Shown in pieces: positions 5,092-42,267 of a DNA stretch of 64,000 nucleotides. This DNA comes from Bacteroidales bacterium. Its GTDB lineage: Bacteria; Bacteroidota; Bacteroidia; Bacteroidales; UBA932. Made by a program: the position numbers and the translations under genes. The stretch spans positions 1 through 64,000 of the forward strand of contig JAFSPG010000015.1 of assembly GCA_017443025.1 (NCBI GenBank), written 5' to 3'. How positions within the stretch are numbered: position 1 is the stretch's first letter; each line of letters opens with the position of its first letter. Below the pieces are notes generated by a model. That model did no database searches, was not told where the DNA came from, and saw nothing but the letters and a program-made list of their open reading frames with translations.

Positions 5092-5685
5092 GTGGCTGAA
5101 TTGTTCTACCCCACATACGAGGTCCAGCTTTATCCTCTGCCTACGGCTGACCGTCCTTCGGATACGATTGTCCGGAAGGACGATGAGATGCTGCCCGTAG
5201 TGGATGAGAACGGACTTGTGTTCGGTATGGCCCGCCGCAGCTATGTCCACTCCGGTTCCAAGCTGCTGCATCCGGTAGTTCATATCCACATCCTGAATCA
5301 TATGGGGGAATTTTACCTCCAGAAGAGGGCTGCCGGTAAGGACTCCTATCCAGGCTACTGGGATTCGTCCGTGGGCGGGCACGTCGGCTTCGGCGAGTCT
5401 GTGGCCGAAGCCCTTCTGCGCGAAGCGCAGGAGGAACTGCGCCTCTCGCGCATCAATCCGGTGGATTTGGGCACATATGTCTGGGAGGATGATTCGGCCA
5501 GGGAGCTCGTTTATGTATTTGGTCTGATTCACGATGCATTGCCTCAGCCGAACCCCGAAGAAGTGTCGGAGGGGCGCTTCTGGAGCCCCGACGAAATCGT
5601 CAGCAATATAGGGAAGGGGATTTTTACCCCTGATTTGGAAAATGAGTTCCTTTCCTACCGCGAAAAGCTCGAAGCCCTGATATAG
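5092..5685 (+). CDS. NUDIX hydrolase (YfcD/IPP-isomerase-like)
   Basis: Cytoplasmic NUDIX-fold enzyme of 197 residues, expected to cleave a nucleoside diphosphate linked to another moiety, or to be IPP-isomerase-like as in the YfcD group. The NUDIX box is complete: GHVGFGE near residue 96 followed by REAQEEL near 110. The upstream GSKLLHPVVHIHI segment is typical of this subgroup. The start is a GTG; an internal ATG at 5188 would also give an intact domain, so the first 32 residues are less certain. It lies three bases before the HIT-SpoIID gene and appears to begin a four-gene operon ending at NamZ. A link to cell-wall nucleotide sugars is inference from context only. Confidence 0.85.
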   Translation: MAELFYPTYEVQLYPLPTADRPSDTIVRKDDEMLPVVDENGLVFGMARRSYVHSGSKLLHPVVHIHILNHMGEFYLQKRAAGKDSYPGYWDSSVGGHVGFGESVAEALLREAQEELRLSRINPVDLGTYVWEDDSARELVYVFGLIHDALPQPNPEEVSEGRFWSPDEIVSNIGKGIFTPDLENEFLSYREKLEALI

Positions 5686-7983: not shown

Positions 7984-9272
7984 AGCCTTCTGTGAAACGT
8001 CATTCCCCCTGGAAGTGGATTCCTACTGTATATGCCGCAGAAGGTCTTCCCAACGTCATAGTTACCGTAGTGTCGGTGACGATTTTCCTGCAAATGGGCT
8101 TGTCCAACACCGAAATCGGCGTATATACCAGCCTTCTACAGCTTCCGTGGATAATTAAGCCTCTCTGGAGCCCTTTTATCGATATTTTCAAGACCAAAAG
8201 ATGGTGGGTAATCACGATGCAGGCCTTCCTCGGGGCGGCTTTTGCGGGTGTGGCATTTACCATAGGTACAGGCTGGTGGTTCCAGTTTATGCTCTTCTTT
8301 CTCTTCCTGATGGGCTTTGCCAGCGCAACTCACGATATCGCCGCCGACGGATACTATATGATTGAGCTCGACGACCATCAGCAGTCGGTGTTTGTCGGTG
8401 TCCGTAATACAGTTTACCGCCTTGCCGTGATATTCGGCAACGGTGTGCTCGTGCTTGTGGCCGGTTTGATTCAGAGGGCTACTGAAGGCAAGATTGCTTT
8501 AAGCTGGTCGCTGGTTTTCTTTGCCCTTGCGGGAATGTTCATTGCCTTTGCCCTGTATCATCGTCGCGGGCTGCCTGTGAGCGCACAGGATGCTCCGCGC
8601 GGGATTTCCGGCAGGGATACCTGGAAGATGGTGGGCACTTCTCTTTCGACCTTCTTTACAAAGTATCCCTGGAAGCAGACCTTCGTGGCCCTGCTGTTCC
8701 TGCTGCTGTTCCGCTTCCCTGAGGCTATGCTCTCGAAAATGGCTCCTACCTTCCTGCAGAGGCCTTTCTCTGAAGGCGGCCTTGGGCTTTCGCCTGAAGA
8801 ATACGGCATCGTGAACGGTACTATCGGGGTTATCGGCCTGCTCGCCGGAGGAATCATTGGAGGTATCCTGGCCGGACGTCACGGCCTGAAGAAGTGGCTA
8901 TGGCCCATGGTTCTGGCGCTTACCTTGCCGGATGTAGTGTACGTCTATATGAGCTCGGCCTTCCCGACGAATCTGGCCGTAATCGCCGGCTGCATCTTTA
9001 TTGAGCAGATGGGTTATGGCTTTGGATTCACGGCGCTTACCCTGTATATGCTTTACTACAGCGCAGGCGAGTTCAAGACCTCACATTATTCAATTTGTAC
9101 AGGAATTACCTATCTGGGATTGATGATTCCCGGTTTCTTCTCGGGCCTTATGGCCGACGGCATGGGCTACTACAAGTTTTTCCTCGCGGTTATGGCCCTC
9201 TGCCTTATTACCTTCGCCGTTACGGCCTTGATCAAGATTGACCCTTCCTTCGGTAAAGCCAAAAAACAATGA
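7980..9272 (+). CDS. MFS transporter, AmpG-like muropeptide permease
   Basis: Inner-membrane major facilitator with about 12 predicted helices over 430 residues. The N-terminus (YAAEGLPNVIVTVVSV, then LPWIIKPLWSPFID) resembles AmpG-family permeases that import GlcNAc-anhydroMurNAc muropeptides or MurNAc sugars. It overlaps the stop of the HIT-SpoIID gene and the start of namZ by ATGA, so translation of all three is probably coupled. Substrate assignment depends on family resemblance plus this context; another sugar or peptide is possible. Confidence 0.8.
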   Translation: MKPSVKRHSPWKWIPTVYAAEGLPNVIVTVVSVTIFLQMGLSNTEIGVYTSLLQLPWIIKPLWSPFIDIFKTKRWWVITMQAFLGAAFAGVAFTIGTGWWFQFMLFFLFLMGFASATHDIAADGYYMIELDDHQQSVFVGVRNTVYRLAVIFGNGVLVLVAGLIQRATEGKIALSWSLVFFALAGMFIAFALYHRRGLPVSAQDAPRGISGRDTWKMVGTSLSTFFTKYPWKQTFVALLFLLLFRFPEAMLSKMAPTFLQRPFSEGGLGLSPEEYGIVNGTIGVIGLLAGGIIGGILAGRHGLKKWLWPMVLALTLPDVVYVYMSSAFPTNLAVIAGCIFIEQMGYGFGFTALTLYMLYYSAGEFKTSHYSICTGITYLGLMIPGFFSGLMADGMGYYKFFLAVMALCLITFAVTALIKIDPSFGKAKKQ

Positions 9273-10651
9273 AACGCCTCCTGTCCGTCATACTGACCGC
9301 TACCGTATTGTTAATCGGCATTGATTGTCATGCATCTGTTTCTTCGGCTGGAGAATCCGGGGATGGCTACTCCGGTCAGCCGGTCCTCCCCACTGAAGCG
9401 GGTCCCCTCCCTTTTCGGGAGCCAATGCCGGCTCGACCGGACAGCCATCCCCGGATGCAGGTCAAGCCGGGTATCGAGGTGCTTCGCGACGGAGGCTTTG
9501 CACAGCTGAAAGGCAAACGCGTCGGCCTCGTTACCAATCCAAGCGGCGTCGACCGCCATCTTAAATCCACCATCGACATCCTTTTTGAGGCCCCTGAGGT
9601 GCAGCTCGTGGCGCTCTTCGGCCCTGAGCACGGCGTCCGCGGCGACGCCTATGCCGGAGCCAAGGTCGAGGACGCGAAAGATGCCGCCACCGGCCTTCCG
9701 GTATATTCCCTCTACGGAAAAACCCGTGAGCCCTCCGACGAAATGCTTCGCGGCCTTGACGCTGTGGTATACGACATACAGGATATCGGTGTGCGCTCCT
9801 ATACCTTTATCAGCACGCTCGGCCTCATGATGCGTGCCTGCGCCCGCCTCGGAATCGAGGTGGTGGTGCTCGACCGCCCCAATCCCCTCGGAGGCCTCAA
9901 GGTTGAAGGCGCGTTAGTGGCGGATGGATGGCACTCATTCGTGAGCTATTACTCCATACCTTATATCTATGGTCTTACTGTAGGGGAGCTCGCGAATCTT
10001 GTCAATGAAGAGGGGCTGAATCTTGGCGTGAAAGGCTCCGAGAAGCACCTCAAGTGCAAGCTGACCGTAGTGCCGATGGAAGGCTGGCACCGCTGGATGC
10101 TGTACTCCGACACGAAACTGCCCTGGATTCTGCCCTCGCCGAACATCCCGTCGCCCAGGGCGGCTATGGCCAACCCGGCCTCCGGCATCTGCGGCGAGTT
10201 CGGTTCGGCGGGCTACCTCAATATCGGCGTGGGTTACACCCTGCCTTTTGAACTTTTCGCCGCCGAATGGATTGACGCAGCCCTCCTGAAAGAGCGCCTC
10301 GACAGCTACAATATTCCCGGAACTGATTTCCGCACCATCCACTTCAAGCCCACGTCCGGGCCCCTGCAGGGTAAACTCCTGCACGGAGTGCAGTTCTTCT
10401 TCTCGGATTACGAGGCCGCGACCATAACCCTTACTCAGTTCTACGTTATTCAGGCTATAAAGGAATTGTACGGGAAGAACCCTTACGACCTCGTCCAGGG
10501 CCGTACACGAATGCTGGACCTGGTCTGTGGCTCAGATTATGTGCGCGAGAAATTCGGCGCCACTCTCCGCGTAGCCGACATCGCTCCCTACTGGAACTCA
10601 GCCGCCGAGGCCTTCAAAGCGCTCTCTTCCAAGTACTATCTCTACCACTAA
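9269..10651 (+). CDS. namZ: Exo-beta-N-acetylmuramidase NamZ-like (DUF1343, GH171)
   Basis: Exported enzyme of the DUF1343/YbbC family (460 residues). Characterised members release non-reducing-end MurNAc from peptidoglycan fragments. Signal peptide at residues 1-23; the conserved core begins near 68 and contains GLVTNPSG, FGPEHGVRG, YDIQDIGVRSYTF, DRPNPLGG and LPWILPSPNIPSP. Residues about 30-62 are an unusual Gly/Pro/Arg-rich segment whose DNA forms a long inverted repeat (see the repeat feature), so this part looks inserted between signal peptide and enzyme. It is the last gene of the NUDIX / HIT-SpoIID / permease / NamZ operon, and a double-hairpin repeat begins directly after its stop codon. 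The operon resembles MurNAc-salvage loci of Bacteroidota such as Tannerella. Confidence 0.88.
   Translation: MKRLLSVILTATVLLIGIDCHASVSSAGESGDGYSGQPVLPTEAGPLPFREPMPARPDSHPRMQVKPGIEVLRDGGFAQLKGKRVGLVTNPSGVDRHLKSTIDILFEAPEVQLVALFGPEHGVRGDAYAGAKVEDAKDAATGLPVYSLYGKTREPSDEMLRGLDAVVYDIQDIGVRSYTFISTLGLMMRACARLGIEVVVLDRPNPLGGLKVEGALVADGWHSFVSYYSIPYIYGLTVGELANLVNEEGLNLGVKGSEKHLKCKLTVVPMEGWHRWMLYSDTKLPWILPSPNIPSPRAAMANPASGICGEFGSAGYLNIGVGYTLPFELFAAEWIDAALLKERLDSYNIPGTDFRTIHFKPTSGPLQGKLLHGVQFFFSDYEAATITLTQFYVIQAIKELYGKNPYDLVQGRTRMLDLVCGSDYVREKFGATLRVADIAPYWNSAAEAFKALSSKYYLYH
9356..9455. repeat. Palindromic element inside the namZ coding region
   Basis: A 100-base inverted repeat. The arm at 9356-9383 pairs with 9428-9455: 13 bases pair perfectly (TCCGGGGATGGCT with AGCCATCCCCGGA), followed by CCGGT/ACCGG and AGCCGG/CCGGCT blocks separated by short mismatches. 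The 44-base loop holds a smaller GC-rich stretch. The reading frame stays open through the element. Confidence 0.75.
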
Positions 10652-10740
10652 CCGGCGCAGACGTCCCAAAAACTGGGACGTCTGCACCAAATTCGGCCTA
10701 AAACAGCGCAGTCGTCCCAAAAACTGGGACGACTGCACCG
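10652..10740 (+). repeat. Double-hairpin repeat family I, copy A
   Basis: Begins at the base after the namZ stop. Hairpin H1 (GCAGACGTCCCA, AAAAC loop, TGGGACGTCTGC) is followed by an 18-base linker with GGCCTAAAACA, then hairpin H2 (GCAGTCGTCCCA, AAAAC loop, TGGGACGACTGC). It lies between the convergent namZ and ferredoxin genes and could serve both as a 3'-end structure, although no U-tract follows either stem. Confidence 0.9.
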
Positions 10741-10761
10741 ATACGTCGATAGTGCGAACTA

Positions 10762-10935
10762 TTACTCGCCGGGCTCGATTGCACCGCTGGGGCATACGCC
10801 TGCGCAGGTGCCGCAGTCAAGGCAGAGGTTAGGGTCGATGCTGTAAACATCGCCGGCATTGATGGCGCCGACGGGGCACTCGCCCTGGCAAGTTCCGCAA
10901 GCTACGCAAAGGTCGGGGTTGATTTTGTAAGCCAT
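10762..10935 (-). CDS. Small 2[4Fe-4S] ferredoxin
   Basis: A 57-residue clostridial-type ferredoxin with two CxxCxxCxxxCP cluster motifs: CVACGTCQGECP at residues 10-21 and CLDCGTCAGVCP at 38-49. The two halves are related by internal duplication, as is usual for the family. It is a low-potential cytoplasmic electron carrier and the natural partner of the pyruvate:ferredoxin oxidoreductase encoded at 26175-29705. It is transcribed alone from its own promoter, divergent from the DUF1573 gene, with interleaved -33 boxes. The start ATG is unambiguous. Confidence 0.95.
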   Translation of the reverse strand: MAYKINPDLCVACGTCQGECPVGAINAGDVYSIDPNLCLDCGTCAGVCPSGAIEPGE

Positions 10936-14919: not shown

Positions 14920-15555
14920 ATGAAACGCATCATTTCAGTTTTCGCAGCAGCATCGCTTCTTGCAGGTGCTGCATCAGCTCAGTCACTCGGCAATCTCGTA
15001 AGCTCGCTTGCAGGCTCATCGAACGCCGCCAATACCATCTCCAATGTTATCTATGCCTTTACCGGCAACACCCAGGCCGTGTCCCTCCCGGGCACATGGA
15101 ACTATACCGGCCCGGCTATTTCCGTCGGCGGCGAGAATGCACTCGCCAATGTAACAGGAACAGTAGCTTCTTCTTCGGTTGAGTCAAAAGTCGGCGGATA
15201 TCTTGAGAAAGTCGGCATCCGCAGCGGCGCAGTTACCTTCGTCTTCAACGAAGACCTGTCCTTTACCTGCACTATCAAGAGTATTCCTCTTCAGGGCACC
15301 TGGCGCACCATCTCCGACGGAAACAAAGTTCAGCTTCAGTTCGGAAAGACCATGAAGTATCTATCCATGACAGGCACTCTTACCAGCACTGCAACCGGAT
15401 GCAAGATGCTCTTCGACGGCAAGAGGTTCCTCGACTTCGTGAAGAAAGCCATGACCTATGTCGGCAAGGCCGACGGCACCGCCAGCGCCATCACCTCCCT
15501 CTCCGGCAGCTACGACAAGCTCCAGATCGGCTTCAACCTCTCCCGCAAGAAATAA
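14920..15555 (+). CDS. Exported DUF4923-like protein
   Basis: A 211-residue protein with signal peptide (cleavage near ASAQ, residue 21) and a lipocalin-like mature domain: GTWNYTGPAI near 58, FVFNEDLSFTCTIKS near 107, GTWRTISDGNKVQL near 127, and a C-terminal SGSYDKLQIGFNLSR. This matches the DUF4923 family of Bacteroidales, whose function is unknown. It is 23 bases after the rhamnosidase and eight bases before the FISUMP lipoprotein. Confidence 0.75.
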   Translation: MKRIISVFAAASLLAGAASAQSLGNLVSSLAGSSNAANTISNVIYAFTGNTQAVSLPGTWNYTGPAISVGGENALANVTGTVASSSVESKVGGYLEKVGIRSGAVTFVFNEDLSFTCTIKSIPLQGTWRTISDGNKVQLQFGKTMKYLSMTGTLTSTATGCKMLFDGKRFLDFVKKAMTYVGKADGTASAITSLSGSYDKLQIGFNLSRKK

Positions 15556-15563
15556 GCAGGAAT

Positions 15564-16841
15564 ATGAAAAAACTTATTCTATTAATCGCAGTTGTCTTAT
15601 TGTATTCCTGCGACGACTACGGCCCGGACAATAAATATATCGGCCACATTCCCGGAATTCAAAATGCCGAAGGCGAGGCTTATGTAAAATGGAAAAGCCA
15701 CGCAAAAGAAGGTGCTTTTGACAACAAAAAATACAAAGAGCAGGTCAGTAAGGAAGAAGCAAAGCTTGAAGGAGTAAAGATGCCCTGCGTCTCAGGCCAT
15801 CCCGAAGTTTTTTCTGTAGTCGGAGATGTTGCAGAATTCAAAGATGGTTGGTATCATGTTCAGTTGATATTCAACAAGGCTATCAGTATTAAGAGCTCTT
15901 CAACGCTGAATGTTTGCTTCTTTAATATGGATGAGCAACAGATGTTGGGCGCGGAGACTCAGATGTACTCAATTGGCATAGGTATTAGTAATTATTGGAA
16001 AGGAGATTATACCAGATGGAGGTTTTCTTTAAATTCCATTAGGTACAATGATTATGTGGAGCTTCAGCAAAAGGCTAATATCGCTGTTCTTTATTTTGGC
16101 AAAGATAGCTTTTCTCCTAACCGCGTGAGGCGTTATGGCGAATCTTCATCTAATAAGAATATACAATCATATCAGTTTGATGAGGCTGTCCGGCAGAAAA
16201 TTGACAGTTTCAAAGCAGCAGTTACTCCTGTTGCAGATCCTCCCAAGAAGTCTGCGAATGTCGTAAACGGATACGAATTCGTTGATCTTGGACTTTCCGT
16301 AAAATGGGCAGTATGCAATGTCGGGGCAGAATTACCAGAAGAATACGGCGACACTTTCGCCTGGGGAGAAACCGAACCTAAAGATAAGACATATGAGGGC
16401 GTAATGTGGTCGGAAGAGAAATGCTGGGAGAATTACAAACTCGTCAGCCATATCCATAAGGAATTCCCCTACAAGATTCATTTCTCAAAGTATAATGAAT
16501 CAGACAGGAAAACTGTTCTTGAGCCTGATGATGACGCTGCTACGATTGCAATGGGCGCGCCTTGGAGAGTGCCTACCAGAGAAGAATGGCAGGAGCTACT
16601 TAACAAGTGTAGCCGTAAAGACAGCAGAGGAAGTGATATCTCTTTTGTCGCCCCCAATGGCAATTCCATTTCTTTCCCAATAATCGGATTCAGATGCAGC
16701 TACTTGACTTCATCACTTGAAGGCAGCTCTTATCCCGATGTCTTGAATGCCAACTATGCTGCCGTGAAGGACGATGGTATTAATATTTATTCTCAAAGTC
16801 GGTATAATCTCTGCCTTGTCAGGGCCGTTCTGGATAAATAA
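15564..16841 (+). CDS. FISUMP-type lipoprotein
   Basis: A 425-residue predicted lipoprotein. The ATG at 15564 gives a clean signal peptide with lipobox VLLYSC; longer in-frame extensions overlap the DUF4923 gene and are rejected. Residues about 20-230 are lysine- and glutamate-rich with no recognised domain. Residues about 235-425 match the major paralogous (FISUMP-like) domain: YEFVDLGLSVKWAVCNVGA, EEYGDTFAWGET, WRVPTREEWQELL and a terminal LCLVRAV. Function is unknown; such proteins are usually surface-exposed. The gene is noticeably more AT-rich than its upstream neighbours. A double-hairpin repeat follows its stop. Confidence 0.8.
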   Translation: MKKLILLIAVVLLYSCDDYGPDNKYIGHIPGIQNAEGEAYVKWKSHAKEGAFDNKKYKEQVSKEEAKLEGVKMPCVSGHPEVFSVVGDVAEFKDGWYHVQLIFNKAISIKSSSTLNVCFFNMDEQQMLGAETQMYSIGIGISNYWKGDYTRWRFSLNSIRYNDYVELQQKANIAVLYFGKDSFSPNRVRRYGESSSNKNIQSYQFDEAVRQKIDSFKAAVTPVADPPKKSANVVNGYEFVDLGLSVKWAVCNVGAELPEEYGDTFAWGETEPKDKTYEGVMWSEEKCWENYKLVSHIHKEFPYKIHFSKYNESDRKTVLEPDDDAATIAMGAPWRVPTREEWQELLNKCSRKDSRGSDISFVAPNGNSISFPIIGFRCSYLTSSLEGSSYPDVLNANYAAVKDDGINIYSQSRYNLCLVRAVLDK

Positions 16842-16881
16842 TCCTTCCAGCGAAGCAGATATCTCGTTCGCGAACTCTTAT

Positions 16882-16983
16882 CGGTGCAGTCGTCCTATTT
16901 TTTTGGACGACTGCACTGTTTTAGGCCGATTTCGGTGCGGACGTCCCAGTTTTTGGGACGTCTGCGCCGGTAGCCATGCCGGC
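16882..16983 (-). repeat. Double-hairpin repeat family I, copy B (reverse orientation)
   Basis: The same element as copy A on the other strand: H2 (GTCGTCC...GGACGAC) comes first on the plus strand and H1 (ACGTCCC...GGGACGT) second. H2 has a longer loop and a shortened stem. The 17-base flank CCGGTAGCCATGCCGGC at 16967-16983 recurs in copy C. It lies between convergent genes. Confidence 0.88.
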
Positions 16984-17011: not shown

Positions 17012-17043
17012 AAGAAGTCGTAGAGTTTTCTACGACTTCTTGT
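17012..17043 (-). terminator. Hairpin at the 3' end of the acyl-CoA synthetase gene
   Basis: A perfect stem AAGAAGTCGTAGA / TCTACGACTTCTT with a four-base loop overlaps the stop codon at 17030-17032. On the minus strand it is followed by a modestly T-rich tract, consistent with intrinsic termination of that operon. Confidence 0.7.
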
Positions 17044-18679
17044 TGTATTTGAAACGGCGGATTTTGTGGGTGGCGGTTTTCTCGAATTCTTCCTGCATCG
17101 CTTCGACGTCGCCGATCTTGCTCTGCTTCCCGACGTGCTTGTTGACGTACTCGAGCAGGGCTTTCTTCTTTTCTTCGAGATTGTTGAAGAAGGAATCCTC
17201 CTTGGCCTGATTCCAGTCGATGAAATTGTCGTCGAACTTCACGAGGGCCACAAGGCGGCCGTCGCGCTCGACGACCAGAGACTCATCTACTCCTTCGGCG
17301 CTGTTAATCACCTCTTCGATTTCTTCGGGATAGATATTCTCGCCGGAAGGGCCGAGTATCATGTTTCCGAGACGGCCCTTGATGAAGTACCGGCCCTTTG
17401 AATCGACGGAGGCCAGATCGTGGGTGCGGAACCATCCGTCGTCCGTCAGGACACTCATCGTGCGCTCGGGGTCTTTGTAGTAGCCGAGCATCACATTGTC
17501 GCCGCGGACTATGATTTCGCCTTCGCCGGTTTCGGGGTTGACATTCTGGAGCTTGACTTCTATGCCCCAGGCCGGCACGCCGATGGAGCCGACTACAGTC
17601 TTGCCTACGCAGGCATTGGTGATAAGCGGAGCGGTTTCAGTCAGGCCGTAGCCGATGGCATAAGGGAAATGTGCTTTTTTCAGGAAAGCTTCGACCGTAG
17701 AATCGAGTTTGCTTCCGCCCACGCCGAAGAACTTGAGGTGGCCGCCGAAACTCTTGCGGAGCCTGTGCCCGACCAGCCTGTAAAGCAGCCAGGGCATATG
17801 TTTCTCCATCCAGGTGAGGATGCGGCTTCTGGCAATGGTCGGGACAACGCTTGAGCGGTAAACCTTCTCAATAATCAGAGGCACCGAGCACATTATGGTG
17901 GGGCGCACTTTCTTCATCGCGGCCATCAGGACCGTCGGGGTGGGAGCTTTCTTGAGATAGTACACGCAGGCACCCACGAAGAGCGGATAAAGTACCGCAA
18001 GGGTGAGCTCATAGGTGTGCGACATCGGCAGTATCGACAGCCAGCGGTCGCGCTTGCCAGCCGGCTGGGCGTGTACGGCCTCTATGATATTCTGGCAGAA
18101 GTTGCGGTGGCTGAGCATTACGCCTTTGGCGTTGCCGGAAGTGCCGGAAGTGTAAATGATAGCGGCGAGGTCGTCCGGCTGCGGTTCTTTGGTCCATCCC
18201 TCGCAAGTAAAGGCGCTCTCGTCTTTCTTTATCAGAGTAAGAGTTTCAATATCGTATATCAGCTTCAGCTTTGCGCGAACTTCCTCTGAAATCTTGGAAA
18301 GGTAACGCTGCGATACGAATAGAACCTGAGTATCCGAATGTGTAAGGATGTTTGTAACCTCGCTCTCGGATGAATCAGGGAGAATGGGTACGGCCACGCG
18401 GCCGAAGGCCACGGCTGAGAAAAACGCGACCGTCCAGTTGGGCATGTTCTGCGAGAGAATCGCAACCTTGTTTCCGGCCCTGATTCCAAAGCGGGACATC
18501 TGATGCGACACGGCTGTACACCTGATTCTGAACGAGTCGTAGGTATATCCGTCAGAGCCGTCGACATACATCGACAACTGCCTGTTGGCATATGCCGACG
18601 TCGAGAAGTCAATCAACTTTGCAAGAGTAGTGATTGTCGTTCTGGGCCAGCGCTTCAATATTCTTTTGTAAAGATCCAT
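17030..18679 (-). CDS. AMP-dependent acyl-CoA synthetase/ligase
   Basis: Adenylate-forming enzyme of 549 residues, probably activating fatty acids to acyl-CoA (or acyl-AMP for transfer). The AMP-binding signature IIYTSGTSGNAKGVMLSH lies near 172, followed by GYGLTET near 341, GYYKDPERT near 403, GWFRTHD near 418 and the hinge KGRLGNMI near 435. An N-terminal extension to 18850 would overlap the acyltransferase gene; MDLYKRIL at 18679, one base after that gene's stop, is taken as the start. Coupling to a PlsC-like acyltransferase suggests a lipid acylation pair. The natural acyl chain cannot be read from the sequence. Confidence 0.88.
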   Translation of the reverse strand: MDLYKRILKRWPRTTITTLAKLIDFSTSAYANRQLSMYVDGSDGYTYDSFRIRCTAVSHQMSRFGIRAGNKVAILSQNMPNWTVAFFSAVAFGRVAVPILPDSSESEVTNILTHSDTQVLFVSQRYLSKISEEVRAKLKLIYDIETLTLIKKDESAFTCEGWTKEPQPDDLAAIIYTSGTSGNAKGVMLSHRNFCQNIIEAVHAQPAGKRDRWLSILPMSHTYELTLAVLYPLFVGACVYYLKKAPTPTVLMAAMKKVRPTIMCSVPLIIEKVYRSSVVPTIARSRILTWMEKHMPWLLYRLVGHRLRKSFGGHLKFFGVGGSKLDSTVEAFLKKAHFPYAIGYGLTETAPLITNACVGKTVVGSIGVPAWGIEVKLQNVNPETGEGEIIVRGDNVMLGYYKDPERTMSVLTDDGWFRTHDLASVDSKGRYFIKGRLGNMILGPSGENIYPEEIEEVINSAEGVDESLVVERDGRLVALVKFDDNFIDWNQAKEDSFFNNLEEKKKALLEYVNKHVGKQSKIGDVEAMQEEFEKTATHKIRRFKYNKKS

Positions 18680-18680
18680 T

Positions 18681-19241
18681 CTAGTGAGTAACGTAGCCTT
18701 TAGGATGCTTTCCGACCAGGCCCATCTTTTCGTATTCGGCCTGGATGCGTTCGGTGTCGGCGCGGGCGTCGTCGGTGAGTTCAATCTTTTCGCCGCAACC
18801 AACCTGCTTCTTGCCCCAGTCAAAGAATCCCAGATAAACAGGGCAGCCAACGGCCTTGGCTATGGTATGATAGCCTGTTTTCCATCTCTTGTTGGCTTTG
18901 CGGGTGCCCTCCGGGGCTATGGCGAGAATAAAGTAATCTTCCTTCTCCATTATGTCAATCAGGCCTTTGACCATGGCTGCGGCATTGCTCCTGTCGGTGG
19001 GAACACCGCCAAGACGGCGCAGCAGTATGCCGAAAGGCCAGACGAAGAAACTCTTCTTGATCATTACCCGGGCTTTACCGGCGTTGAATTGCGTATAGAA
19101 GAGGTATGAAATGACGAAATCCATTGCGGAAGTGTGAGGGACTCCGAGGATGATGGCCTTTTTGTCGGGGCAGGGACCGCCGATGGTGGTCCATCCCATT
19201 TTCCTCAAAACGAAGCCGCAGAATTTAGCCCATGCTGCCAT
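18681..19241 (-). CDS. PlsC-like lysophospholipid acyltransferase
   Basis: A 186-residue membrane-associated 1-acyl-glycerol-3-phosphate acyltransferase-family protein. The HX4D catalytic motif (HTSAMD, residues 36-41), the FVWPFG...GGVPTDR region and APEGTRK near 109 are all present. It is short for PlsC but normal for the compact Bacteroidota type. It lies between parE (11 bases downstream of the parE stop) and the acyl-CoA synthetase (one-base gap), and could use acyl groups activated by that enzyme. Acceptor lipid unknown. Confidence 0.82.
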   Translation of the reverse strand: MAAWAKFCGFVLRKMGWTTIGGPCPDKKAIILGVPHTSAMDFVISYLFYTQFNAGKARVMIKKSFFVWPFGILLRRLGGVPTDRSNAAAMVKGLIDIMEKEDYFILAIAPEGTRKANKRWKTGYHTIAKAVGCPVYLGFFDWGKKQVGCGEKIELTDDARADTERIQAEYEKMGLVGKHPKGYVTH

Positions 19242-21233: not shown

Positions 21234-21336
21234 GCCGGCATGGCTACCGGTGCAGACGTCCCAAAAACTGGGACGTCCGCGCCAAAAACAGCCTAAAACA
21301 GCGCAGTCGTCCCAAAAAATGGGACGACCGCACCGG
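21234..21336 (+). repeat. Double-hairpin repeat family I, copy C
   Basis: H1 (GCAGACGTCCCA...TGGGACGTCCGC) then H2 (GCAGTCGTCCCA...TGGGACGACCGC), with linker CAGCCTAAAACA. The stem of H1 extends to about 15 pairs with one mismatch. The flank GCCGGCATGGCTACCGG (21234-21250) is the same 17 bases seen beside copy B. It lies about 30 bases beyond the 3' end of the M16 protease gene. Confidence 0.88.
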
Positions 21337-21366: not shown

Positions 21367-24183
21367 TTATTCTGCCTCTTTGGTTGTGGCCGGGCGGAGG
21401 ATACCCTCGGCTTTGTTGCCTGCAGAGAGAATTTCGGTGAGGACTGCCTTGACGGCCTCAGGAGTGAGGGCTGCGACAGCGGCCTCGTGGTCGGCGTCGC
21501 GGTTGAAGCCGTAGCGGTGATACTGGCGAACTACATTGTCCCAGTACCTGATGGTCTCACGCTGCTCGGGAATGTTCTTCTCGAGGTTTTTCTTGGCCAT
21601 GTCGAACTCTTCGGCGGTGGGGCCTTCGGAGGCAAGAGCCTTGAGATCCTTCTCGGCGATTTCGCGGAGATTGTCGGCGAGGGCGGGCTTGCAGTCGAAG
21701 TAGACTCTCAACTGTGCCTGTGACTTGGGCTCCCAATCCCAGTTGGCCATGGTCTGTGCACCATAGGTGCCGCCTTCCTCCTCGCGGAGAGAAGTAACGT
21801 AGCGCATGTTGAGGATGTAGCGGGCGGCGTCAAGGGCGACATGCTTCTTGCGGTCGTACTTGATGGGGGCGCTGTAAGTTACGTATACAGTTGACTTGGG
21901 AGTCTCCATATCTACGGCGAAGTCGTCGGTGCGGACTCCGGGGAGAATCTCGGTGTTCCAGTCAACATACTTCAGGGCTTTCTTGCCTGCAGGGATGGAG
22001 CCGATATATTTGTCGACGAGAGGTTTCAGGGCCTCGATGTCGATATCACCGGAGATAACTACGAGAAGTCCGGCGGCATCGGCGAAGAGCTTGCGGTAGT
22101 TCTTGCCTACAGTCTCTACGTTAGCCTTGGCGAGGGTCTCGGGGCTGATGAAGCCAACGCGAGGATTGTCGCCGTAGAAGAGCTTGAAGATATGCTGCTG
22201 GAATTTGTAGTCGGGCTGGTTGACGATGTTGTCAATCATAGCGGAAATCTGCTTTACACCCTGGTTGTATTCTTCTGCATCGAAGCGGGGCTGGGTGTAG
22301 AAGAGATAGCAGAGCTGGAGGGCGGTCTCGATATCCTTGGGAGTGCTGTTGCCGCTGATTCCGTGGCGAAGCTCCTGAACGAAAGGAGTAACCTTAACCT
22401 CTTTTCCTGCAAGCATCTTTGTGACGGTCTTGCCGGAGAATGAAGCCACGCCGGTATTGCGCAGGAACATTCCGAAGATGGTTTCGTCGAAGCTGTCGAG
22501 GTCCTCGGTGGGGATGAGGCTCTCGCCGCCTTCTTTGCTGAGGTTGATCAGCACGCGGTCTTTCTGGACGTCATCGCGGTAGAGGACAACCTTTGCTCCG
22601 TTCTTGAGAGTGTAAACGGTTGCGCCGAAGGGGTCGGTCGAAGGCTTTCCGGCCTTGCTGCCCTTGAGGGCGGCAGGATCGAGGAAGGCTGTAGGGATAT
22701 CTTCCTTCTCGTTAGGCTTGATTTCGGTGTTACGGACCTCTGCGAGGAGTTCGTTGACCTGCTCTGCAGTAGGATGTACGAGACCTTCCTTCTCAGGGGC
22801 CTTGTAAACTACTACGAGGCTGTTGTGAGCCTTGATGAGCTCAGGAATGACCTGATTGACCACATCTGCAGTAATGCCCATAGAGAAGATCTGATTTGCA
22901 AGCATATGCTCGGTCTTGGGCTCCATGAAAGGAACATTGTCGAAGAAGTGGTTGATGAGAGGATAGACCAGCTGGCTGTTCTGGCGGGTGTCGGCCTTCT
23001 TCTCGGCGGATTCATATTTGGAGAGGATGTCGTCCTTGGCCCTGTTGAATTCGTCGTCGGTGATGCCGAAGCGGCGGAGTTTCTCAATCTCGATCATGAA
23101 GGCCTTGAGGGCGGGAAGGGCCTCGCCTTCCTTGGCGGATACCTGGCTCATTACAACCTCAATGAACTCGCTGAGGTCGCCTACGCCAAGACCGGCGTTG
23201 AGGAAAGGAGAATCATCGCGGCTGGCGATATCGTCAAGACGCTCATTGGCTACGTGAGAGATGACATCCTTGACAAGGTTCATTACGAATACCTGAGGAC
23301 TGCTGTTCATCGATTCAGGAGTGGGCTCCATCTCCCAGAGAACCTCCCAGTTGATACCGGTGGCCTCGGGGTCGGTGATTATACCGATGCGGGGATCCTT
23401 GAATTCGTCGAAGGGGAAGCTGTCTTTTGCCTTGGGATTCTCCTCCTTGGGAATGTCGCTGAATATCTCAGCAATCTTGGCCTCTACGTATGCTACGTCG
23501 ACGTCACCGACAACAATCATTGCCTGCATGTCGGGGTGATACCAGGTCTTGTAGAAGTTGACGATGCTCTCGGGCTTGAAGTTGAGAAGATTCTCCTGGC
23601 TGCCGATGAGGGTGCACTCGCCATACTTGTTGTTGCCATAGTAGTAGGGGAGAGACTTCTCGTGCATTCTCCATGCAGCGTTGCGGCGGGCGCGGCGCTC
23701 CTCTACGATGACTCCGCGCTCCTTGTCAATCTCGGCGGGATCGTTGAGGACGAAGTGCGCATAGTCGTGCATGATGAGGAGGCAGGTGTCGATTACGGTA
23801 GGGCGGACCAGAGGAATGTTGTTAAGCATATAGATGGTCTGCTCTACGCCGGTAGAAGCATTGACGTTGCCGCCGAAGGAGGCACCGATGCTCTGGAGAT
23901 AATCGAGGATGCCCTTGCCGGGGAAGTTCTTGGTGCCGTTGAAGCACATATGCTCGAGGAAGTGGGCGAGACCGTCCTGGTCGGGGGTCTCCTGAATGGC
24001 ACCGACGTTGGTAGCGAGATAGAACTCGGCCCTGCCGGCAGGTTTTTCATTGTGCCTGATGTAATAGGTCAGGCCGTTTTCCAGTTTGCCAACCTTGACT
24101 GCCGGATCATTGGGCAGGCTTTGGGCTGTCATCGCAAGGGCTCCAAAAGCCATTGCGGCAATGCTGAGAATAAACTTTTTCAT
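21367..24183 (-). CDS. M16-family zinc metallopeptidase (pitrilysin-like), exported
   Basis: A 938-residue insulinase-family protease with two M16 halves. A signal peptide (MKKFILSIAAMAFG...) precedes the catalytic domain with the inverted zinc motif HFLEH at residues 74-78 and a downstream ERGVIVEE containing the third ligand. The C-terminal half lacks an HxxEH, as expected. It is probably periplasmic and degrades peptides. The start is the ATG at 24183; the longer open frame upstream is untranslated leader containing the promoter. It is transcribed divergently from the LysR gene. Confidence 0.9.
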   Translation of the reverse strand: MKKFILSIAAMAFGALAMTAQSLPNDPAVKVGKLENGLTYYIRHNEKPAGRAEFYLATNVGAIQETPDQDGLAHFLEHMCFNGTKNFPGKGILDYLQSIGASFGGNVNASTGVEQTIYMLNNIPLVRPTVIDTCLLIMHDYAHFVLNDPAEIDKERGVIVEERRARRNAAWRMHEKSLPYYYGNNKYGECTLIGSQENLLNFKPESIVNFYKTWYHPDMQAMIVVGDVDVAYVEAKIAEIFSDIPKEENPKAKDSFPFDEFKDPRIGIITDPEATGINWEVLWEMEPTPESMNSSPQVFVMNLVKDVISHVANERLDDIASRDDSPFLNAGLGVGDLSEFIEVVMSQVSAKEGEALPALKAFMIEIEKLRRFGITDDEFNRAKDDILSKYESAEKKADTRQNSQLVYPLINHFFDNVPFMEPKTEHMLANQIFSMGITADVVNQVIPELIKAHNSLVVVYKAPEKEGLVHPTAEQVNELLAEVRNTEIKPNEKEDIPTAFLDPAALKGSKAGKPSTDPFGATVYTLKNGAKVVLYRDDVQKDRVLINLSKEGGESLIPTEDLDSFDETIFGMFLRNTGVASFSGKTVTKMLAGKEVKVTPFVQELRHGISGNSTPKDIETALQLCYLFYTQPRFDAEEYNQGVKQISAMIDNIVNQPDYKFQQHIFKLFYGDNPRVGFISPETLAKANVETVGKNYRKLFADAAGLLVVISGDIDIEALKPLVDKYIGSIPAGKKALKYVDWNTEILPGVRTDDFAVDMETPKSTVYVTYSAPIKYDRKKHVALDAARYILNMRYVTSLREEEGGTYGAQTMANWDWEPKSQAQLRVYFDCKPALADNLREIAEKDLKALASEGPTAEEFDMAKKNLEKNIPEQRETIRYWDNVVRQYHRYGFNRDADHEAAVAALTPEAVKAVLTEILSAGNKAEGILRPATTKEAE

Positions 24184-24258
24184 TTGCGTATAATTAAATG
24201 AATGATAATTTGTCGTTAAACGGGGTGTTTCACTCGCGGGAAAACCGCCCCTGTCCCG

Positions 24259-24266
24259 CAAATGTA
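24259..24266 (-). promoter_or_regulatory. -7 box of the M16 protease gene
   Basis: TACATTTG on the minus strand exactly matches TAnnTTTG. No convincing -33 box is seen. The leader would be about 70 bases long. Confidence 0.45.
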
Positions 24267-41711: not shown

Positions 41712-41799
41712 CCTGTCAGGTGGCGCATTTTTTGGCACACCTGTCGAGAAATCTGGCATTTCCCCGGCAGGTGGAACATTCTCAGGCGCACCTGACAGG
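41712..41799. repeat. Double-hairpin repeat family II
   Basis: An 88-base unit bounded by a perfect 11-base inverted repeat (CCTGTCAGGTG / CACCTGACAGG). Inside are two 27-base hairpins with the same plan: CAGGTGG, two bases, CATT, four bases, GGC, one base, CACCTG. It directly abuts copy D of family I and has the same overall architecture but a different sequence. Confidence 0.75.
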
Positions 41800-41805
41800 C
41801 TTCAA

Positions 41806-41877
41806 CCAGTGCAGACGTCCCAGAAAATGGGACGTCTGCACCGAAAAACGCCAAAATCAGCGCGGTCGTCCCAAAAA
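41806..41877 (+). repeat. Double-hairpin repeat family I, copy D (truncated)
   Basis: H1 is complete (GCAGACGTCCCA, loop GAAAA, TGGGACGTCTGC). The linker is diverged (CGCCAAAATCA), and H2 stops after its first arm (GGTCGTCCCAAAAA), 22 bases short of the DUF486 stop codon. Confidence 0.82.
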
Positions 41878-41898: not shown

Positions 41899-42267
41899 TT
41901 ACTTCAGGAAGGCGAAGAAGACTGCGAGGACGATGCAGGCGAAGGACGCAATGTGATTCCAGTGAAAGGCCTCGCCCTTGAAGATGAACATGACAATAAT
42001 CGTGAAGACGCTGAGCGAAATCACCTCTTGAATTACCTTCAGCTGAACGAGACTGAACGGCCCGCCGTTAGCCTGATAGCCTATTCTGTTGGCGGGGACG
42101 ACGATGCAATACTCGAAAAAGGCGATTCCCCAGGAAAACAGGATTACCAAAATCAGCGGCCAACTTGTGGATATTTTCATCTCCGCCAGCTTGAGGTGTC
42201 CGTACCATGCGAATGTCATCAGGATGTTCGATAATACGAGCATCAATATTGTCCAAAGTCCGTTCAT
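41899..42267 (-). CDS. DUF486 small membrane protein (DMT superfamily)
   Basis: A 122-residue protein with four predicted transmembrane helices and the DUF486 hallmarks WYGHLK, WGIAFFEYCIVVPANRIGY and FSLVQLKVIQEVISLSVF. Members are small relatives of drug/metabolite transporters; function unknown. It is monocistronic, with a promoter interleaved with that of polA and a dispersed repeat in its 5' leader. Confidence 0.9.
   Translation of the reverse strand: MNGLWTILMLVLSNILMTFAWYGHLKLAEMKISTSWPLILVILFSWGIAFFEYCIVVPANRIGYQANGGPFSLVQLKVIQEVISLSVFTIIVMFIFKGEAFHWNHIASFACIVLAVFFAFLK

Follow-up and report, generated by a model that had tools for sequence, protein, structure and literature searches.

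A two-hairpin, REP-like repeat at gene 3' ends in a Bacteroidales genome, associated in relatives with RAYT-related transposase genes

Features of the window

The window, i.e. the whole 64-kb stretch of DNA that was analysed, contains four copies of a repeat of about 90 bases, each facing the 3' end of at least one gene. The repeats and their neighbors are listed below. The strand given for the element is the one that carries its A-rich linker. Genes were assigned by Pfam, and for copies 1 to 3 the extent of the model match is given as well.

9269..10651, plus strand, NamZ gene, with a stop codon that ends 1 nt short of the match of copy 1 to the model
10652..10741, plus strand, element copy 1 (model match 10653-10740): hairpin 10653-10689, linker AATTCGGCCTAAAA 10690-10703, hairpin 10704-10740
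10762..10935, minus strand, 4Fe-4S ferredoxin gene, convergent with NamZ on copy 1
16881..16970, minus strand, element copy 2, two hairpins (model match 16882-16969)
17030..18850, minus strand, AMP-binding enzyme; 3' end faces copy 2
21247..21336, plus strand, element copy 3, two hairpins (model match 21248-21335)
21367..24261, minus strand, M16 peptidase; 3' end faces copy 3
41717..41794, no strand assigned, double copy of a second double-hairpin family (CAGGTG...CACCTG) with the 51-nt pitch of the first family, immediately left of copy 4
41806..41877, plus strand, element copy 4, truncated: hairpin 1 and linker whole, hairpin 2 without its 3' arm
41899..42267, minus strand, DUF486 gene; 3' end faces copy 4

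On their far sides, copy 3 adjoins the 5' end of a GyrB/ParE-like gene and copy 4 that of an RmuC gene (both Pfam). A preliminary description of this DNA had listed four double-hairpin copies of about 90 bases. All four are present; the third starts at 21247 and not at 21234, and two hairpins are found in copies 1-3 but not in copy 4, which retains the 5' arm alone of its second hairpin. A stop codon had been placed within about 50 bases of each copy, in agreement with the distances of 1, about 41-60, 31 and 21 nt for copies 1-4. Among the neighbors named there, NamZ, ferredoxin, the acyl-CoA synthetase (as an AMP-binding enzyme), M16 and DUF486 were recovered by Pfam, but FISUMP was not, as the 480-aa ORF at 15399-16841 gave no match in Pfam or NCBIfam.

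The linker decamer GCCTAAAACA, described as conserved, is exact in three of the four copies and reads GCCAAAATCA in copy 4; the window contains it three times, against 0.10 occurrences expected from shuffles. The heptamer CGTCCCA alone is weak evidence, with 16 occurrences in the window compared to a shuffle mean of 7.8 and a largest shuffle count of 17. The single-stranded DNA (ssDNA) folds of copies 1-4 gave z values of -9.4, -11.6, -8.5 and -6.8 (200 shuffles each, none as good). Each half folds separately in copies 1, 2 and 4, and in copy 3 the best fold joins the outer ends as well. Identity to copy 1 is 92% for copy 2, 91% for copy 3 and at most 85% over most of the unit for the remaining genomic places; copies 1-3 thus look like a local subfamily. 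A search of 72,556 plasmid records with copy 1 gave no match.

Copies in the genome and their placement

Model R1 was built from ten copies and searched against the 1.66-Mb assembly at E < 0.01. This whole-genome search, which the preliminary description had proposed, revealed further copies: the assembly contains 12 element loci, 10 of them complete (a three-hairpin array among them) and 2 truncated, and the window holds 4 of the 12. The pattern GTCCCA-N(3-8)-TGGGAC has 14 matches per strand in the genome and none when reversed.

According to a codon-usage gene caller, which is crude and misses the ORF at 15399-16841, 11 of the 12 loci are intergenic and the 12th, on contig C2, overlaps a called ORF by 48 nt. 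The 11 intergenic loci comprise six between convergent genes, four between co-directional genes, one with a gene on one side only and none between divergent genes. With the C2 locus left out and the one-sided locus kept, all 11 are nearer to a gene 3' end than to a 5' end (null 0.52; p = 7e-4), and nine have a gene 3' end within 50 nt (null 0.37; p = 3e-3). Among 55 elements examined in relatives, four lie between divergent genes and seven overlap a called ORF; the latter and five with a gene on at most one side were left out of the count, in which 33 of 43 elements are nearer to a 3' end and 32 of 43 have one no more than 50 nt away (nulls of 0.52 and 0.37, with the reservation that some of these elements flank transposases and that null gaps outside the window may contain elements). 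The placement just 3' of genes that had been noted in the window extends to the genome and to its relatives. Two outcomes had been named in advance as speaking against it, namely the lack of further copies and copies equally common inside genes and at 5' ends; instead, more copies are present and they favor 3' ends. With its 12 loci, the element is dispersed, extragenic, palindromic and multi-copy, the properties by which REP/BIME sequences are recognized.

Architecture of the element in related genomes

Model R1 matches 29 of 101 genomes of the genus, which we take to be Cryptobacteroides. The elements found there keep one plan and differ in their stem letters: a 37-nt hairpin (15+7+15), an A-rich linker of 14-15 nt and a further 37-nt hairpin, with the loops about 51-52 nt apart. 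Elements that flank transposase genes align with a single gap column; in these the linker is typically AAAAnnGGCCnAAAA and is conserved while the stem varies. Models R2 and R3 were derived from 32 of 34 candidate flanking elements, L159 and L161 having been dropped as near-duplicates; R2 additionally includes window copy 1, and R3 is free of any window sequence. R3 recovers all four window copies (E 6e-15, 9.4e-15, 7.7e-14 and 1.2e-4). Changes on both sides were seen in 28 of 30 pairs and in 282 of 990 cells, where shuffles gave 90 and slid versions 38-73; this count is partly built in, since a hairpin detector had picked the elements, a selection that shuffles and slides offset only in part, and the percentage paired is inflated. 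In an order-wide sample of 295 genomes (183 genera by tally), R3 matched the own genome and gave one weak match (E 1e-4), and with this near-absence the element looks largely genus-bound.

Tandem hairpin arrays with a pitch of about 52 nt occur beside transposases (loci L208, L199 and L187) and in the own genome at C6:9794-9936. The C6 array has three hairpins and that of L208, in a relative, has six.

Transposase genes flanked by elements

In the relatives, pairs of R1 elements 1.05-1.36 kb apart enclose a RAYT-like gene of about 290 aa in four of four cases. The four founding proteins have an SNHVH motif; all match NF047646 and three match Y1_Tnp, mostly near or below the cut-off. Profile A2, the alignment of these four, matches 88 of the 101 genus genomes at E <= 0.001, with up to 14 matches each. 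The set analysed consists of the best 80 of 217 relatives in named genomes, nearly all records being Bacteroidales MAGs, mostly ruminant. An element at E <= 0.001, no farther away than 500 bp upstream or 300 bp downstream, lies beside the transposase gene at 75 of these 80 loci, on both sides in 37, downstream at 63 and upstream at 49, at a median distance of 121 bp upstream and 26 bp downstream. The hairpin detector alone gave 34 flanked loci of the 80, which the model search raised to 75; this number leaves out two cut or partial matches and all weaker ones, and would become 77 with the weak near-gene matches of L181 and L188. Loci that supplied no training sequence were flanked in 43 of 48 cases, and 19 control loci of the genus scanned with the same model contained no element. 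A transposase gene flanked by its own repeat family, the arrangement that defines a REPtron, is thus present in the relatives.

The HuH motif M-S-N-H-[VLI]-H was found in 79 and Y---N in all of the best 80 of 217 proteins, and H, H, Y and N are invariant in 26 transposases. The Y motif reads NC (49), NS (25), NP (5) or NA (1), i.e. Y---N[CS] in 74 of the 80, and the Y---NP motif given for class 2 in PMC6006769 is absent from 75. Six proteins scanned with the curated NF047646 all match at 22.8-42.6 bits, below the cut-off of 80. Y1_Tnp (PF01797) matches 25 of the 26 transposases at E <= 1 and exceeds its cut-off in four of six scanned. A sequence profile searched against solved structures gave weak transposase matches (best E 0.028). 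Pfam did not confirm a C-terminal HTH in the relatives' transposases, with a single member matching HTH_IclR at E 0.18.

R3 elements occur in 45 of the 48 genus genomes that have a close transposase and in 17 of the other 53 (Fisher p = 4e-11), where close means E <= 1e-90, a split set after the scores had been seen, and some training elements came from sampled genomes. The window's genome is one of these 17, out of 62 element-bearing genomes in total. Stem arms were compared in elements of 88-89 nt, 53 lying downstream and 30 upstream, chosen from the 63 and 49 loci (the set also used for the wobble, foot and Mantel tests). Their identity is 0.83 inside a single element, 0.90 for the two elements on either side of the same transposase (20 pairs) and 0.54 from locus to locus. 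Stem similarity tracks transposase identity, with a Mantel r of 0.39, and 0.26 for pairs less than 75% identical (p = 5e-4 for both). In the relatives the stem sequence is particular to each transposase, and members of its stem family are scattered over other parts of the genomes.

The own genome has three RAYT-like genes, on C6, C15 and C16, with scores, in falling order, of 97.6, 88.3 and 25.6 bits compared to more than 500 for the founding four, from which the profile was built; the C16 gene was found by A2 and missed by PF01797. They were rejected as partners, with no R2 element in the flanks examined and other repeats beside them. One of three PF01797 matches in the own genome, at C17:212968, was set aside as false, its ORF looking cytidylate-kinase-like. 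The preliminary description had suggested as one possibility that a RAYT-type transposase encoded outside the window spreads a REP/BIME-like element and had advised a search for a REP-associated Y1 transposase gene. The relatives support this well, with a RAYT-like partner flanked at 75 of the best 80 of 217 loci, but the own genome does not, none of its three RAYT-like genes being flanked. The own assembly yielded no partner transposase that has elements beside it; as it is 93.5% complete, absence of the gene is not proven.

Evidence on movement

Flank comparison of 115 elements revealed one site that is filled in RUG352 (L164) and RUG13040 (L178) and empty in RUG253 (L182) and RGIG3197 (L177). 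The genes on both sides are kept in all four MAGs. In the filled site the element directly follows a TAG stop, and in the empty site the stop is followed after about 8 nt (RUG253) or 2 nt (RGIG3197) by the next ATG. The flanks are 86-91% identical for RUG253 and 76-77% for RGIG3197. The site fits gain and loss of the element alike and could serve to examine movement. Neither excision nor copying was seen, and no target-site signature could be recognized. A second apparently empty pair, L187/L127, represents repeat-array variation and was left uncounted.

Comparison with known systems

REP sequences are common in bacteria, and the RAYTs that spread them may read a fixed tag or the shape of the hairpin. 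A grouping of RAYTs was reportedly made by Bertels and colleagues in 2017. REP, BIME and REPIN sequences with TnpA_REP/RAYT transposases are described for E. coli, Pseudomonas and Stenotrophomonas (PMC8266576, PMC3116915, PMC3733652). The present element is similar in being a short extragenic palindrome that is paired, dispersed and biased to gene 3' ends, and it resembles a REPtron in that each family goes with a single HuH/Y1 transposase gene, on whose flanks its copies lie. Unlike classical REPs it has no GT[AG]G tag, and it conserves the A-rich linker but tolerates change in the stem. The unit consists of two complete 37-nt hairpins with a 51-52-nt pitch and may differ from inverse REP pairs, its halves leaning to direct repeats with 37 of 83 elements tied; in contrast to a REPIN, an inverted doublet that pairs into one long hairpin, it is the two-hairpin structure that covaries.

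The TnpA_Y1 subclass 2.6 of Quentin et al. (2018, PMC6006769) is mostly from Bacteroidetes and has 'atypical secondary structures'. Common features are the phylum, the HuH motif NH[LIV]H, flanking structures without GT[AG]G and copies elsewhere in the genome; subclass 2.6 differs by a median length of 179 aa and the motif YIH[QN]NP, as against about 290 aa and Y---N[CS] in 74 of 80 here. The long proteins with a C-terminal extension recall subclass 2.1/TIRYT (long, with a C-terminal helix-turn-helix), for which that report gives no REP-like sequences near the genes, whereas 75 of the best 80 of 217 are flanked here (PMC6006769). The CGTC-tagged REPs of Di Nocera et al. (2013, PMC3733652) share CGTC in the stems and include Bacteroidetes among five phyla; their CGTC is an unpaired tag, the stems are of 8-9 bp and no transposase is associated, while here CGTC forms part of a paired 15-bp arm and transposase genes are flanked by relatives of the element. 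No description of this element was found in the literature searched (open-licence papers).

Interpretation

The 90-bp unit is very probably a non-autonomous, REP-like mobile element that is moved by a RAYT-related HuH/Y1 transposase. The link between element and transposase was observed in the relatives, and from these we infer it for the window's genome. The transposase, probably a dimer with one subunit per hairpin, would bind the element as folded ssDNA, for instance on the lagging-strand template, would cut at the hairpin feet and would copy or move the element in trans to new intergenic sites; the insertions that survive may be those just 3' of genes, where harm to promoters and reading frames is least. 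As no cognate gene was found in the assembly, the family in the own genome appears to be a remnant or a trans-mobilised population. Against a REP reading, 12 loci per genome are few for a REP family.

An alternative is a host-selected RNA device, i.e. 3'-UTR hairpins that act against 3' exonucleases, in processing or in termination without a U-tract, the copies of which were merely duplicated; protection or processing of mRNA 3' ends had also been considered in the preliminary description. Such a role is consistent with the strong gene-3' placement, the very stable folds and the excess of G-T over A-C pairs on the transposase-sense strand (148 vs 80; 99 vs 59 downstream and 49 vs 21 upstream), which is expected of a folding transcript, although a DNA-strand preference gives the same. 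It is unlikely, however, in view of the dispersed copies, in which G-T and A-C pairs number 39 and 36 on the gene-sense strand and orientation relative to the adjacent gene is 17 to 17 (9 of the 12 own loci and 26 of the 55 elements in relatives, one of the latter without a gene strand). Moreover, orthologues of the two neighbors of copy 3 have no element in 20 loci from ten relatives, and in an Rfam scan of the window only tRNA reached the gathering threshold, with no family for the element. The stems had been described as lacking the U-tract of a terminator; this applies to copies 1-3, which have no terminator-like site, but two weak sites overlap copy 4, in a stretch that is at background (3 sites vs 2.3 in shuffles).

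The palindromic, extragenic and multi-copy nature of the element, its position beside genes with RAYT HuH and Y motifs and the NF047646 matches of all six proteins scanned would also suit an ordinary GTAG-class REP/BIME with a decayed tag and a standard RAYT as mover. We consider this quite unlikely, as the foot reads GTG[C/T/A], with no G in the fourth position and no GT[AG]G tag at the 5' foot in any of 166 flanking and 50 dispersed ends (the 18 own-genome ends read CGG[TC]GC), as Y---NP is missing from 75 of the best 80 of 217 transposases, and as the NF047646 scores are all under the cut-off. Tandem duplication of a 51-52-nt unit by slippage or unequal recombination, with no need of a transposase, agrees with the arrays of the same pitch and with the orientation of the hairpin pair, which in 83 non-redundant elements is closer to direct repeats in 35, to inverted repeats in 11 and tied in 37, although array members swell the direct count. 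It accounts for arrays but not for dispersal to 12 loci, and leaves the 75 flanked transposases among the best 80 of 217 and the clean filled/empty site unexplained; this reading is highly improbable.

With mobilisation by a transposase as the preferred reading, there is about an even chance that one Bacteroidales genus has a REP/RAYT lineage of its own, whose divergent Y1 clade (Y---N[CS], about 290 aa) mobilises an obligate two-hairpin unit. Its enzyme would read geometry (matching hairpins, the 51-52-nt pitch and the A-tract/GGCC-like linker) more than a fixed tag, so that transposase and stem would drift together like lock and key, with several families per genome, here CGTCCC and CAGGTG. 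Dozens of transposase-element pairs in one genus, with differing stems and constant geometry, constitute a natural mutational series for the recognition code. With Y---N[CS] and without a GT[AG]G tag, the family reaches beyond the definition published in PMC6006769.

Other repeats in the genome

The CAGGTG family has eight pairs in the own genome, with a pitch of exactly 51 nt as in the first family. Besides the pair in the window, these are:

C15:149948-150025
C12:67855-67932
C16:31802-31879
C17:3642-3719
C17:101107-101184
C7:45097-45174
C11:20214-20291

Two of the pairs directly adjoin members of the first family, namely window copy 4 and the one at C15:149848, as though both families shared landing places, and R3 weakly matches two CAGGTG pairs. 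A third repeat (GAAGAGGGAAAAAG...CTCTTTTTCCCTCTTC) occurs beside both families and forms mosaic intergenic clusters with them (own loci L005, L013, L018, L289, L291 and L295). The C15 RAYT-like gene has a different palindrome of about 105 nt on both sides (L036:3717-3821 and 5423-5529), and a repeat with GC-rich stems follows the C6 gene (L038:5110-5260). The upstream sequence AAGAATCGTAAAA... is alike before the C16 and C6 RAYT-like genes and recurs after the C16 gene (L219:1280-1430 and 2490-2570; L038:4040-4080).
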